The translations under genes and the position numbers were made by a program. A stretch of DNA of 10,137 bases, taken from Pleurocapsa sp. MO_226.B13 (lineage in GTDB: Bacteria > Cyanobacteriota > Cyanobacteriia > Cyanobacteriales > Xenococcaceae). The notes under the pieces are model-generated. The model worked only from the letters and a program-made list of their open reading frames with translations. It did not search any database and was not told the origin of the DNA. This document shows positions 1 through 10,007 of the stretch, one piece after another. The stretch's first letter is position 1, and each line of letters opens with the position of its first letter. The stretch lies in NCBI GenBank assembly GCA_030064795.1, contig JASJEI010000509.1:1-10137 (forward strand), read 5' to 3'.

Positions 1-63
1 AACGGGGTACATTTTCTATCTGAATATCACCTCATCAAATATATTTGGATAATATTATCAGGT

Positions 64-89
64 AAAAACGAGCAAACTAGCTCGTTTTT
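64..89 (+). terminator. Strong rho-independent terminator hairpin
   Basis: Perfect 10-bp stem: AAAAACGAGC (64-73), a six-base loop, then GCTCGTTTTT (80-89), with the T-run continuing past the stem. The T-run makes it an intrinsic terminator for plus-strand transcription entering from the left edge, and the A-run before it means it could work in both directions. The gene it would serve lies mostly outside the window. Two plus-strand frames are open from base 1 (to 51 and 102) but are too short to identify. Confidence 0.65.
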
Positions 90-197
90 TATTTTTTCGT
101 AAAGGAACTTATTTATTTTCTATTCCAATCTTCCAAGGGAATTCTATTTCGGCTGAATAAATAAGATCAATATTATGTATCGCCATGACTTGAGGTG

Positions 198-872
198 TTA
201 ATTGAGATTATTCTCAATCGGTTGTGTATTGGGGGATGTAGTTACTGGGGGATAAGCTGGTTTTCCGAAGTAGGCTTTTTCTTCAACGGGTGTCAGCATG
301 GAAAGGTTAGCGATCGCGCCCCTTACTTGATCGGGTCGGACTTCTAAATATTTGTAAAGTTCGTCGAGGGTTCTGTGACCAGAAATTTCTTGGATGATGC
401 GTAATGGTACACCTGCATTACTCATTTGGGTTAGAGCGGTACGGCGAAAACTGTGGGTACTGACTCCTTCGATATCGACTCGCTTACAGGCTTCTCTGAG
501 TATCCAGTCGGCAGAATCGGTTTTGATGTGACCTTTGCCGTGTCTGCCAGGGAAAAGATAGCCCCTGGTGTTCTTTGGTCGGTATTGTTTGAGCCTGATT
601 TTCAAATCCTCCACGATGGGAATGGTACGAGTGGCGAGCTTTCCTTTGGTGCAGCCTTTTCTGATGTTCAGTTCGGGGCGAACACGCCCTTTGGAATCAA
701 ATACGTCTTGAATGTGGAGGGTGACGCACTCGTTGATACGGCAAGCGGTGTAGAGACAGACAGAAAAGAGGGTTCTATCTCTGATGGGATTGAGAGTAAA
801 ACCTTCGTTGAAGAGTAATTGTATCTCGCCAGGAGTTAGTATTTTTGCTCTGCCATGACGGTCTACCTTCAT
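198..872 (-). CDS. Compact tyrosine recombinase/integrase (catalytic domain only)
   Basis: This is a 224-residue phage-integrase-family (XerC/D-like) recombinase, which would cut and rejoin DNA through a phosphotyrosine link. The active-site set is visible: Arg45 in TACRINE, a candidate beta-hairpin lysine at 76 or 78, His140 and Arg143 in HSFRR, His166 in SGHRT, and the nucleophile Tyr175 nine residues later. It is shorter than classical integrases and lacks the N-terminal core-binding (SAM-like) domain, starting almost directly at the catalytic fold. The C-terminal 30 residues look disordered. Its stop overlaps a stem-loop (201-218, arms ATTGAGA/TCTCAAT). No clear ribosome binding site precedes the ATG. 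Its first 14 codons plus about 57 bp upstream are duplicated at 1956-2054, so its promoter region also exists as a second copy. All catalytic residues are present, so it could be active. The substrate site is unknown; the flanking repeats are candidates. Confidence 0.93.
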   Translation of the reverse strand: MKVDRHGRAKILTPGEIQLLFNEGFTLNPIRDRTLFSVCLYTACRINECVTLHIQDVFDSKGRVRPELNIRKGCTKGKLATRTIPIVEDLKIRLKQYRPKNTRGYLFPGRHGKGHIKTDSADWILREACKRVDIEGVSTHSFRRTALTQMSNAGVPLRIIQEISGHRTLDELYKYLEVRPDQVRGAIANLSMLTPVEEKAYFGKPAYPPVTTSPNTQPIENNLN

Positions 873-929
873 CTACACATTGTTATCGCCCAATATAACT
901 ATCCTATAGGAGTTGGTGACAATCTCGAA
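831..929. repeat. Direct repeat copy 1, covering recombinase 5' end and promoter region
   Basis: This copy aligns without gaps to 1956-2054, with 93 of 99 bases identical and a constant offset of 1125. It covers codons 1-14 of the tyrosine recombinase and the DNA upstream of it. It contains a 10-bp perfect palindrome, TCCTATAGGA, at 902-911. Read on the minus strand, TTGTCA and TATATT elements about 19 bp apart could be a weak promoter. Confidence 0.93.
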
Positions 930-1107
930 ACTAAGGAAGGGAAAGAGGGTGAAAAGAATCTTAAGAGGTTCCAGAACGTATGTTAGTGTTAGTAAAGCTG
1001 ATTTTATGGGAATAATATCCTTAGAAAATAAACGTAAGTTTCTGAGAACATCACAGAATAACCATTCATTCTCGTGAAGGTTTACAAAAATGCTTAAATA
1101 GCAGCCA

Positions 1108-1902
1108 ATGAAAAACTGGGAAAGAATCGCTTTAATTTTCACACAATATCTAATTATTGTGGTTTTACCTTTGGGAATTACGATTACATTTTTTTTAGTA
1201 TTTAATCAAAATATAGCAGAATACAATAACGCTCCTCTAGGTATTAAGTTGGCTGGTCCTATAGCTGCCTACGTTGCGTTATTAATAATATTTGACATAG
1301 TAATCCAGAGAGCGTTTTCAACATGGAGGAGAGCTTTATTAGATTGGCAAGAACAGGAAAAACAGCAAAAATATCTTAGTTACATAGACCTTGATATTGA
1401 CAAAGCAATGCAACTATCTGGAAAGCTTTCAGAATTAATATCTAGATATATTATCGTAGAGATTCTGCTGATTAGGAGAGAGTACGAAGACCCTCATCAA
1501 GGTCTTTGGACTGCGGTTAGCATAACAAGAAAGAAGATTTATGGATTTCAAAACTTGGTTGGCGAAGTCACTATATATGAAGGCAAATATAAGCTACGCG
1601 AGGTACTCGGTGCAGCAATTAATAACTCGAAATTTATTGATGACTTAAAAAAAGAAGCTGCCACTATATTAGAGATCAAATATAGTGATTTAACTCCACC
1701 AAAAGTAGAAAAGCTAGAAATTAATGATATTTCTAGTTTGGATGAAGCTTGGCAGTCTTTTGAAAAAGAAACTAAATTTTTCAGAAGTACGGGATTACAC
1801 AAATTTCATAATAATATAACAAATATTGTTTGGAGACAATGTGAAAAAGCTCTTCATGATCCTGCTTCCGCGCTGGAAAAACAAAATCTGCTTCCACCCT
1901 AG
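1108..1902 (+). CDS. Two-helix membrane protein of unknown function (cargo between direct repeats)
   Basis: I do not recognise this 264-residue protein. Two hydrophobic helices are clear, at about residues 8-32 and 47-66, followed by a basic/aromatic stretch (QRAFSTWRR) and a charged, mostly helical cytoplasmic domain of about 195 residues. This topology suggests an inner-membrane anchor with a large cytosolic domain. There is no signal peptidase site, known enzyme motif or nucleotide-binding loop. The gene is visibly AT-rich compared with the neighbouring recombinases, and it is the only plus-strand gene in the left half. It lies alone between the two 99-bp direct repeats, so it looks like acquired cargo. 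The ATG has no strong ribosome binding site and no good upstream alternative. Small two-helix membrane proteins on mobile elements are sometimes defence effectors or exclusion proteins, but nothing here proves either role. Confidence 0.75.
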   Translation: MKNWERIALIFTQYLIIVVLPLGITITFFLVFNQNIAEYNNAPLGIKLAGPIAAYVALLIIFDIVIQRAFSTWRRALLDWQEQEKQQKYLSYIDLDIDKAMQLSGKLSELISRYIIVEILLIRREYEDPHQGLWTAVSITRKKIYGFQNLVGEVTIYEGKYKLREVLGAAINNSKFIDDLKKEAATILEIKYSDLTPPKVEKLEINDISSLDEAWQSFEKETKFFRSTGLHKFHNNITNIVWRQCEKALHDPASALEKQNLLPP

Positions 1903-1955
1903 GTCTGCATCTCTAAGAAAGGCGTTGTTCAAACCAGGGCTGCACTTTGATATAG

Positions 1956-1998
1956 AGGAGTTAGTATTTTGGCTCTGCCATGACGGTCTACCTTCATC
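1956..1998 (-). pseudogene. Truncated 5' end of a second tyrosine recombinase copy
   Basis: Read on the minus strand this encodes MKVDRHGRAKILTP, identical to the first 14 residues of the intact recombinase at 198-872. It then runs into unrelated sequence (LYQSAALV and a stop). None of the catalytic domain is present, so it is a relic. It shows that either a full recombinase gene once stood here and lost its body, or the 5' end was duplicated when the DNA between the repeats was inserted. Confidence 0.85.
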
Positions 1999-2054
1999 TA
2001 CATATTGCCATCGCCCAATAAAACTATCCTATAGGAGTAGGTGACAATCTCGAA
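1956..2054. repeat. Direct repeat copy 2
   Basis: Second copy of the 99-bp repeat at 831-929, with six substitutions and no gaps. The same TCCTATAGGA palindrome lies at 2027-2036. Similarity stops abruptly on both sides: leftward after codon 14 of the recombinase, and rightward just after CTCGAA. Confidence 0.93.
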
Positions 2055-2124
2055 GAGTCTTCATTAGCTATCGTTCTGGTACTTCTAAATAGATTTCAAA
2101 CATCATCCTATGATTATAGGCTAT

Positions 2125-3245: not shown

Positions 3246-3806
3246 TCACTCTATCTCTATTAAACAAGATTCTTCGATTAAAGCTAGGTTACGAATCGCA
3301 ATTTGAATATGAGCGCGGTCGAAAATAGCTGAATCAGCATAAATGCGATCGCCTTCATTAAAGACAGCGCGAATCGCACCAACCTGTTCTCCCTGTGATT
3401 CTATTATCTCTCCCACTAAGTAATTAAAGAAGGCACAGTCTAAACGGTGAGCTTTGGAACGTTGGGGATTCTGGCGGGGTAAGGGTATATTAGTTTTTTT
3501 GTAAGCAGTTACAAATGAATCGTAAGTTTCTCGAATCAAAGGAAACCAACTAATATCAAGCAAGTCCAAACAGTTTTCCAGTAACAATTTAGATTTAATT
3601 ACAGCAGGAGCATTGGGATACCTTTCTTTTGCCCAAGCATAGGCTCGTAGGGGAGCATCTTGGAAAAAATACACTCCCGTTCCCAGCCAATCATAGTCAT
3701 TGATACTAAAGTTAAACCCCTGGTCGATAATTTCTTGGGCTGCTTTTAAGCTCGTTCCATGATACCCATAAACCTCCAATAGCTTAGGGATTGGAGCATA
3801 CACCAT
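3246..3806 (-). CDS. PARP-like ADP-ribosyltransferase-fold protein, putative toxin
   Basis: This 186-residue protein matches the motif order of PARP/diphtheria-toxin-type ADP-ribosyltransferases, which move ADP-ribose from NAD+ onto a target. YHGTS (His16-Gly17-Thr18) resembles the PARP HGS motif. It is followed by the helix AAQEIIDQGF and then GTGVYFFQD (Gly42, Gly44, Tyr46), like the PARP GxGxYF block, and AYAWAK. Near the end, SAIFDRAHIQIAIRN resembles the last catalytic strand. A tentative alignment puts Asp158 where PARP1 has catalytic Glu988, so the triad may be His-Tyr-Asp, or the glutamate may be elsewhere (Glu151). There is no signal peptide or membrane helix, so it should be cytosolic. 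GGAGAGAG before the ATG is a good ribosome binding site. The gene follows the partition genes in the same direction and is tightly coupled to a 72-residue partner, which fits a toxin-antitoxin module stabilising the replicon. The target is unknown. Confidence 0.85.
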   Translation of the reverse strand: MVYAPIPKLLEVYGYHGTSLKAAQEIIDQGFNFSINDYDWLGTGVYFFQDAPLRAYAWAKERYPNAPAVIKSKLLLENCLDLLDISWFPLIRETYDSFVTAYKKTNIPLPRQNPQRSKAHRLDCAFFNYLVGEIIESQGEQVGAIRAVFNEGDRIYADSAIFDRAHIQIAIRNLALIEESCLIEIE

Positions 3807-9255: not shown

Positions 9256-9437
9256 TTAGTTAATATACTTTCTCGGAATTATTTTGGAAGTATTTTAACT
9301 CTTGAGTTTAAAATAACTAATTCATTTATAGTTAATTTTACATTTTATCTCTCCAGAAAAAAATAAAGAAGAGTAACGCAACTAACTAAAACACCTTATT
9401 CGATAGTAGATTAGCGAAAAGACGAAGATCGGGAGAA

Positions 9438-9533
9438 TCAAAAATTCAGCGTGGAAATCGCATTTTCCTTTTGCGCCTCAGTCACTCCTAGATAGCGTTC
9501 CAAGGATGCTAAAGTCCGATGACCCGATATCGA
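9438..9533 (-). pseudogene. C-terminal relic of a second tyrosine recombinase
   Basis: On the minus strand this 31-codon frame encodes SISGHRTLASLERYLGVTE, then AQKENAISTLNF and a TGA. It is the last part of a tyrosine recombinase, with the SGH motif and the nucleophile tyrosine nine residues later (RY), closely similar to ISGHRTLDELYKYLEV of the intact gene at 198-872. Upstream an in-frame stop appears. Bases to about 9550 still resemble the preceding helix (AGGT...CTTCATAATC for AGVPLRVI) with small deletions. The homology then ends where the inverted-repeat element begins. The rest of the catalytic domain is absent, so the gene is dead. Confidence 0.85.
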
Positions 9534-9554
9534 TTATGAAGTCTTACCTGGGGG

Positions 9555-9599
9555 ATGACCACGATTCGCACATTTTAGGGTCATATCGACCTTAAATGC
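9555..9599 (+). repeat. Left inverted repeat of the gene-free element
   Basis: It starts ATGACCACGATTCG and ends TTAAATGC. Its inner half folds on itself: CATTTTAGGGTC and GACCTTAAATG pair around ATATC with a single bulge. It abuts the decayed recombinase relic. Confidence 0.75.
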
Positions 9600-9957
9600 T
9601 TGTCCAGACTAGATTTGAGATTTGTATTTTTTGTAACTACAAATCCGATAAATCAATAGAGGTTAATACATCTCGACAAACTCATAATTGCTAGTTATGG
9701 ATTTTTCGCAATAACTAGGGGATGATTCTCATTTACCAAGGCTTTTCTCAATAAAAATTAAGCGAAAATTATCAGTAGCTTAGATCCTTTATAGTTTCGT
9801 CTTTAAGAGTACCGATAGTCGTAATTATCGGTAGTTCATCCCATTGAAATATAAGATTTGCTAATCCCTATAAATCAAGCTTTTCCCAATCAAAAACGAT
9901 TTTAGCTGTCGTTCGTCTCATGGCTAAGTACTACATTTAAAACCCTTACTATTTATA

Positions 9958-10001
9958 GCATTAAAGTCGATATGACCCTTTAATTCACGAATCGTGGTCA
10001 T
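9958..10001 (-). repeat. Right inverted repeat of the gene-free element
   Basis: Inverted copy of 9555-9599. Its inner half also folds on itself (ATTAAAGGGTC with GACTTTAAT around ATATC), although several stem bases differ from the left copy. It ends six bases before the stop codon of the partial gene at the window edge. Confidence 0.75.
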
Positions 10002-10007
10002 ACGCCG

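Follow-up and report, generated by a model that had tools for sequence, protein, structure and literature searches.

An integrase gene and a second copy of its 5' end bracket a single long reading frame

The window (the whole stretch of DNA analysed, 10,137 nucleotides of contig JASJEI010000509.1 from Pleurocapsa sp. MO_226.B13) carries near its start an intact gene for a tyrosine recombinase, or integrase. The first codons of this gene and the DNA before them recur in the same orientation on the far side of a divergent reading frame, which we call the cargo. The features on which the argument draws are as follows.

64-89, no strand assigned: terminator-like hairpin past the 3' end of the recombinase gene (terminator scan)
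198-872, minus strand: tyrosine recombinase (integrase) of 224 aa, gene intact; PF00589 match over residues 12-179 (E 2e-24, over the curated cut-off)
831-929, minus strand: repeat copy 1, comprising codons 1-14 of the intact recombinase (831-872) and the upstream 57 bp (873-929)
873-929, minus strand: promoter-like upstream element of the recombinase, with an ATAGGAT-centred core that recurs upstream of relatives
930-1955, no strand assigned: interval between the copies, which with one copy makes a 1,125-bp unit
1108-1902, plus strand: cargo ORF, 264 aa, the only long ORF in 930-1955, divergent from the recombinase
1929-1997, minus strand: truncated frame of copy 2, 22 codons with a stop at 1929-1931, read from the sequence
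1956-2054, minus strand: repeat copy 2, an orphan recombinase 5' end oriented as copy 1 and independently recovered by a profile scan as an orphan N-terminal piece
2055-2061, minus strand: 7-base outer extension of copy 2, present in relatives and absent beside copy 1
9434-9545, minus strand: integrase C-terminal remnant, from another subfamily (profile scan), at most 81% identical over 94 bp to L282

A repeat scan of the window returned the two copies (831-929 and 1956-2054) as a direct pair of 99 nt with an offset of 1125 and 93 of 99 positions identical, while the window's remaining 13 direct-repeat families span only 20-38 nt at 70-85% identity. These values agree with the initial annotation, and the ORF positions bear out its statement that each repeat consists of recombinase codons 1-14 and upstream DNA. 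Copy 2 has the same 14 codons as copy 1 and diverges thereafter; in the other direction, the outer flanks of the two copies differ from exactly -57 outward. Within the interval, tblastn detected no integrase trace beyond chance (best E 0.48) and the terminator scan found no terminator-like site. Transcription from the promoter-like DNA retained by copy 2 would approach the cargo gene from its 3' side, and copy 2 may give rise to a 22-residue peptide and to RNA antisense to the cargo.

That the bracket is an assembly artefact or a chance match is extremely improbable. The window is a separate contig and megablast found no near DNA match to the whole window among plasmids, as such an explanation would allow, but the repeat pair scores E 4e-40 in BLAST and a second locus has similar anatomy. 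The longest exact run common to both copies is just 31 bp, which makes a misjoin unlikely for an assembler using long k-mers.

The cargo frame is probably real, because its codon score exceeds those of its alternative frames and its GC content (33.7%, versus 38.2% in the window as a whole) is similar to that of the window's other membrane-protein gene (30.5%). Of the earlier description of a single AT-rich membrane-protein gene, the one long ORF and the low GC content hold, and the membrane label corresponds to two N-terminal hydrophobic stretches seen by eye. A relatives search at E <= 0.001 returned only the cargo itself among 910 candidates, and no homologue was found in plasmids, in viral contigs, or in 388 genomes of the order and 27 of the family (overlapping sets). 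The cargo likewise matched nothing in Pfam, PADLOC or NCBIfam, and its structure model, of low confidence (pLDDT 66), had no PDB match at E <= 0.001. An 89-aa minus-strand frame at 873-1142, for which Pfam gave no match, and two shorter frames also lie within the interval.

Several other features were noted in the window. A serine recombinase frame at 2125-2715 lacks the first part of its domain (the match starts from position 19 of 145), and its catalytic serine would presumably fall in the absent part. A small protein at 3246-3806 has weak, sub-cut-off ADP-ribosyltransferase matches and a PADLOC match to PD-T4-9_A (E 4e-5). At 9550-10006 lies an inverted repeat of 46 nt, 83% complementary and 365 nt apart, whose ends match Chondrocystis plasmid6 at L082 (37 bp, 97%), L218 (47 bp, 91%) and L120. 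The other end of the L218 counterpart lies 3.8 kb away in inverse orientation, and the window's element is probably MITE-like, a shortened relative of some larger transposon. The integrase remnant at 9434-9545 is broken off beside this inverted repeat and would lie downstream of the intact integrase only if the contig were circular.

The integrase belongs to a large family found on cyanobacterial plasmids

Since the Pfam phage-integrase match covers residues 12-179, the window recombinase has no core-binding domain ahead of its catalytic domain. Residues R45, H140, R143, H166 and Y175, which we take to be the catalytic residues, are invariant across 22 aligned relatives, and in length the protein is presumably like FimB and FimE. 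It falls under the NCBIfam cut-offs for XerC (50.5 versus 335 bits), XerD (49.4 versus 329.6) and the integron integrase (33.1 versus 265). A structure model built from 22 sequences was poor (pLDDT 60) and was discarded.

The recombinase family comprises 3460 proteins at E <= 0.001, and a member (E <= 1e-20) is found in 161 of 376 genomes of one order. In PLSDB, 506 records match the recombinase by tblastn; the 60 matches listed are all cyanobacterial, and those beyond the 60 include Piscirickettsia and others. Chondrocystis NIES-4102 has three plasmids with one family recombinase on each, and a putative role in plasmid multimer resolution is plausible. Four relatives known as proteins (P0001-P0004) are 88-94% identical. 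Among the loci compared at the DNA level, L002 encodes a protein 89% identical to the window recombinase, and L123, L114, L120 and L077 encode proteins at 59-62%. The DNA after the L002 gene also resembles window positions 54-122 (87% over 69 bp).

A second locus repeats the anatomy of the window

To survey the family we clustered 292 genes at 97% identity into 205 clusters and compared each locus with itself within 4 kb. In 10 of the 205, the integrase gene recurred in part or nearly whole within this distance: L238, L135 and eight loci with partial direct copies (the window, L231, L132, L134, L139, L194, L008 and L066). L238 holds a nearly full direct duplicate (87% over 714 bp), L066 an upstream 42-bp piece of codons 18-31, and the inverted copy in L135 was rejected because it forms one arm in the record of a linear plasmid. 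Contig C190 of genome G003 also carries two integrases that point the same way, one bearing two stops. A profile scan for integrase pieces covered 202 loci (2.02 Mb), with no match in shuffled translations, and recovered two orphan N-termini (the window and L231), six C-terminal pieces (two in L133, two in L280, one in L134 and the window remnant at 9434-9545) and one middle piece (L008). Excluded from its 17 partial groups were L148-L153 (six, divergent viral relatives), L111 (divergent) and L245 (contig end); the N-terminal halves in contigs C178 and C243 of genome G005 were set aside because they are situated at contig ends. The 3' pieces of L132 and L139 come from the self-comparison only. 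Among the loci of the first 81 relatives, none had a second copy covering promoter and start codon.

Of the 205 non-redundant family genes, L231 is closest to the window in anatomy. Its promoter DNA and about 20 integrase codons (-78 to +62) are repeated directly, with 76% identity, 1.6 kb further upstream, and a 231-aa ORF between the copies is directed away from the integrase. A 216-aa minus-strand frame extends into the repeat, and in the search alignment the L231 integrase match contains a TGA. The L231 orphan is 71.5% identical to the neighbouring gene and 70.1-75.9% identical to five relatives, sharing seven sites with relatives against four with the neighbour only. In a FastTree tree it joins L256 (support 0.88), and BLAST gives 78.9% to L256, 76.2% to its own neighbour and 72.5-75.0% to five other relatives. 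These comparisons weakly suggest that the orphan may derive from another allele than its neighbour.

The two genes L248 and L253, which lie about 35 kb apart on one contig (G196:C3), are 99.2% identical only between position -110 and a point 24 bp short of the stop, a pattern attributable to gene conversion of recent date or to duplication of a very short segment.

The repeat contains a conserved upstream element and no detectable recombination core

The upstream element at 873-929 looks like a promoter, a role suggested by its recurring motif. Its ATAGGAT-centred core is present to varying degree upstream of L002, L123, L114 and L120 and more weakly in L077, and other clades have TTGAC-N17/18-TTCAAT in the equivalent place by eye. 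A consensus promoter scan gave no promoter at 873-929, the promoter-core pattern was absent from viral contigs, and repeat copy 1 had no match in phages.

The initial annotation had proposed a self-targeting cassette with the integrase's promoter and 5' end as its attachment site. In such a cassette recombination would take place at the gene's own promoter and first codons, so that a circle of cargo and 99-bp repeat would insert, restore an intact gene and be able to exit likewise. The direct orientation, the preserved gene and the single divergent gene between the copies are in keeping with this, and L231 provides a second locus with nearly identical anatomy. Genes of the Waterburya genome, where L002 and L123 both lie, also agree with it: between genes whose proteins are 62% identical, the upstream DNA is 86% identical over 78 bp, more than expected. 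A precedent exists in TnpI of Tn4430 and Tn5401, which, in the available text of PMC7157771, uses a promoter-containing site that lies upstream of its own gene.

Four observations speak against the cassette. First, no inverted-repeat core was detected in the 99-bp repeat, where the best arms are 5 bp and differently placed in each copy. Some clades show upstream inverted repeats when inspected by eye, but no excess emerged: of 187 integrase upstream regions every second one was taken, and these 94, assessed with mononucleotide shuffles, scored no higher than 100 control regions. Second, inner edges differ from case to case, at codon 14 in the window and about codon 21 in L231. Third, different cargo at the same edges, which the initial annotation had suggested looking for in relatives, was absent in 205 genes and in 415 genome searches made with copy 2 (388 + 27, overlapping); the sole look-alike, L231, has another inner edge and another gene. 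Fourth, the two copies have drifted by 6%. The cargo-free relative that the initial annotation also proposed does exist in L002, which has neither cargo nor second 5' end, but this is a homologue of 84% identity set in different surroundings rather than an empty version of this plasmid. We therefore consider the cassette improbable at this locus; no result calls for it. The broader proposition that short cyanobacterial plasmid recombinases recombine over their own promoter and first codons, with circles carrying single genes from plasmid to plasmid and an intact gene rebuilt at each insertion, is about as improbable. If true, the cassette reading would describe a bacterial gene-capture system with its own promoter as the site.

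Leftover 3' ends on other plasmids mirror the window

On five plasmids or contigs (L132, L139, L134, L133 and L280), leftover integrase 3' ends lie beside other genes. In Euhalothece pEu3 (L132, 8637-10157) the integrase is followed by a BrnA/BrnT pair and then by a 140-bp copy of its 3' end (92%). The Fischerella locus L139 has a 61-bp 3' piece (89%) with a pentapeptide-repeat gene between, and the Nostoc locus L134 a 126-bp piece (87%) with a small ORF between. In Nostoc sp. UHCC 0302 plasmid unnamed8 (L133, 3700-6970) the arrangement is array-like: after the integrase come an mCpol-domain gene with a neighbour and a C-terminal piece, and then a VapC-toxin gene with a neighbour and a second C-terminal piece. 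The L133 pieces are 93-96% identical to annotated integrases of five other Nostoc plasmids, with others more distant. In L280, two pieces flank a small membrane-like ORF.

A direct integrase pair in pEu3, first read as a cointegrate, in fact reflects a record whose two ends overlap by 12.4 kb, so copies within that overlap are counted twice; the 3'-end repeat is separate from it. A common crossover near codon 136 for the Nostoc 3' leftovers was likewise rejected, as their starts spread from about 131 to 147 by eye.

The pieces follow a consistent geometry. Both orphan N-termini lie upstream of an intact gene and seven C-terminal pieces (L132, L139, L134, two in L133 and two in L280) lie downstream, all in direct orientation. 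The exceptions are L194, with a 3'-end copy upstream and a 40-bp piece downstream, and L008, with a middle piece upstream. Outer edges fall at or near the ends of shared DNA: the window repeat ends at -57, where the block shared by the window and L002 also ends, and the L231 repeat ends at -78, near the end at -74 of the block that L231 shares with L248 and with L253. Inner edges vary among the 3' pieces as they do among the 5' leftovers, with starts near codons 131-147 by eye, and at ~144 in L134, ~179 in L132 and ~200 in L139. Across 40 independent integrase pairs at 80-97% identity, homology extends far upstream in 13, far downstream in 19 and both ways in 9.

To ask whether integrase ends are hot spots for such events, we counted partial direct copies of other ORFs in the same loci. 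These occur for 18 of 645 other ORFs and for 8 of 201 integrase ORFs (Fisher p = 0.36), so integrases are not demonstrably special and the hot-spot idea was discarded. The control excluded ORFs >1,400 bp and <150 codons and drew solely on loci selected because they contain an integrase; among its 18 cases, L231 3361-4011 is an antisense frame that overlies the repeat of that locus itself. The cyanobacterial plasmids of these loci are mosaic in general.

The bracket as a candidate scar of integrase displacement

We favour, with modest confidence, the reading that the bracket is the scar of an incoming segment of cargo plus integrase that replaced most of a resident integrase by half-homologous, half-illegitimate recombination. 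A resident plasmid would have carried an integrase module, in which the gene was preceded by about 57-64 bp of promoter DNA and followed by a short stretch of 3' flank. The incoming segment, with the orphan cargo gene ahead of a related integrase differing by a few per cent, would have replaced the bulk of this module, with one junction formed through homology within or past the integrase gene and the other by illegitimate joining past codon 14 of the resident gene. The outcome would be one intact integrase and a gained cargo, with the resident promoter and 14 codons remaining as copy 2 and the 6% between copies reflecting the difference between donor and resident alleles. An event of the reverse polarity would instead place an integrase 3' end downstream of the intact gene. 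One-sided replacement thus predicts the observed geometry, with N-terminal leftovers upstream, C-terminal leftovers downstream and all of them direct.

Several results count for displacement. In the window and the look-alikes, a piece of the putatively displaced homologue adjoins the intact gene in direct orientation. Outer edges coincide with the edges of shared blocks while inner edges vary, and copy 2 has 7 bp of extra flank: its alignments to L002 and L123 begin 7 bp before the repeat edge, while the copy-1 alignment to L002 begins at the edge. Of the six differences between the copies, three are apparently derived in copy 2, one in copy 1 and two are ambiguous, which also counts in favour, as does, weakly, the grouping of the L231 orphan. 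Counting against it are the mutual closeness of the window copies (94%, versus 83-85% to L002), the off-rule pieces of L194 and L008, the similar rate in the control and the slightness of the L231 signal. Neither a donor nor a resident plasmid was found among the plasmids and the order and family genomes searched.

The main competitor, a strong one that we nevertheless judge less likely, is an in-place direct duplication of the integrase module with the cargo between, after which the upstream copy lost everything past codon 14. It fits the window alone nearly as well, because the copies are each other's nearest relatives, closer (94%) than to any relative found (83-85%). Full direct duplicates are also known (L238 and G003 contig C190), and the excess of derived changes in copy 2 (3 versus 1) is compatible with decay. 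Against it, no trace of the lost 3' part or its terminator was detected in 930-1955, the outer flanks differ from exactly -57, and the L231 orphan does not cluster with its neighbour, although this last point is weak. The scar of a decayed recombinase duplicate, which the initial annotation had offered as its second possibility, is near the favoured reading; that the leftover came from a different, displaced allele rather than from an in-place copy is weakly supported. From the observed repeat, edges, look-alikes and geometry, we infer replacement, its half-homologous nature and the direction of transfer as the most likely history. The finding is true but modest: a probable scar, matched closely at one other locus and in mirror image at several more.

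Relation to known systems and significance

In integrons the cargo adjoins the 5' end of the tyrosine recombinase gene and is divergent from it, as in the window. The window differs in having an integrase that scores 33 bits against a cut-off of 265, and direct copies of the 5' end instead of attC. Short Xer sites, known as pdif sites, delimit another kind of module. The dif modules of Acinetobacter plasmids, as set out in the accessible part of PMC13141974, resemble the loci described here in placing single genes, often toxin-antitoxin, between short repeats on small mobilizable plasmids; in the window, by contrast, the repeats are pieces of a recombinase gene, and we recognised neither a pdif site nor an inverted-arm core.

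TnpI and the IRS of Tn4430 and Tn5401 share with the window a tyrosine recombinase with conserved DNA directly upstream, but compared with the available account (PMC7157771), the window has no detected IR1-IR2 core and no transposase-sized ORF, and its repeat includes codons. The largest window ORF (478 aa) is not a transposase by Pfam. Suicidal, SSV-type integrases, which the portion of a review available to us confines to archaea (PMC8371274), are similar in that integrase pieces border other DNA. The difference from that description is that here the intact gene stays, and because N-terminal pieces end at codons 14-21 and C-terminal pieces begin at ~131 or later, the leftovers are not two halves cut at a single site.

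The nearest parallel to displacement is found in the orphan immunity genes and Rhs scars of type VI secretion systems (T6SS), where, in the available text of PMC5361080, an incoming module displaces a resident one with homology on one side and pieces remain, sometimes as arrays (compare L133 and L280). Relative to that text, the loci here differ in that the anchor is a plasmid integrase gene and both polarities occur, with 5' pieces upstream and 3' pieces downstream. The same text proposes homology-facilitated illegitimate recombination for orphan immunity genes, orphan Rhs 3' ends and arrays, and joining that is half homologous and half illegitimate is described in competent bacteria in the accessible part of PMC3240628. 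A literature search of titles and abstract openings, with most subscription journals outside its scope, did not find the present arrangement in cyanobacterial plasmids.

If the displacement reading is true, the common integrase genes of cyanobacterial plasmids, like other shared genes, would serve as stretches of homology for gene addition. Toxin-antitoxin, defence-like and orphan genes would be added in this way, leaving recognisable remnants of the previous integrase.
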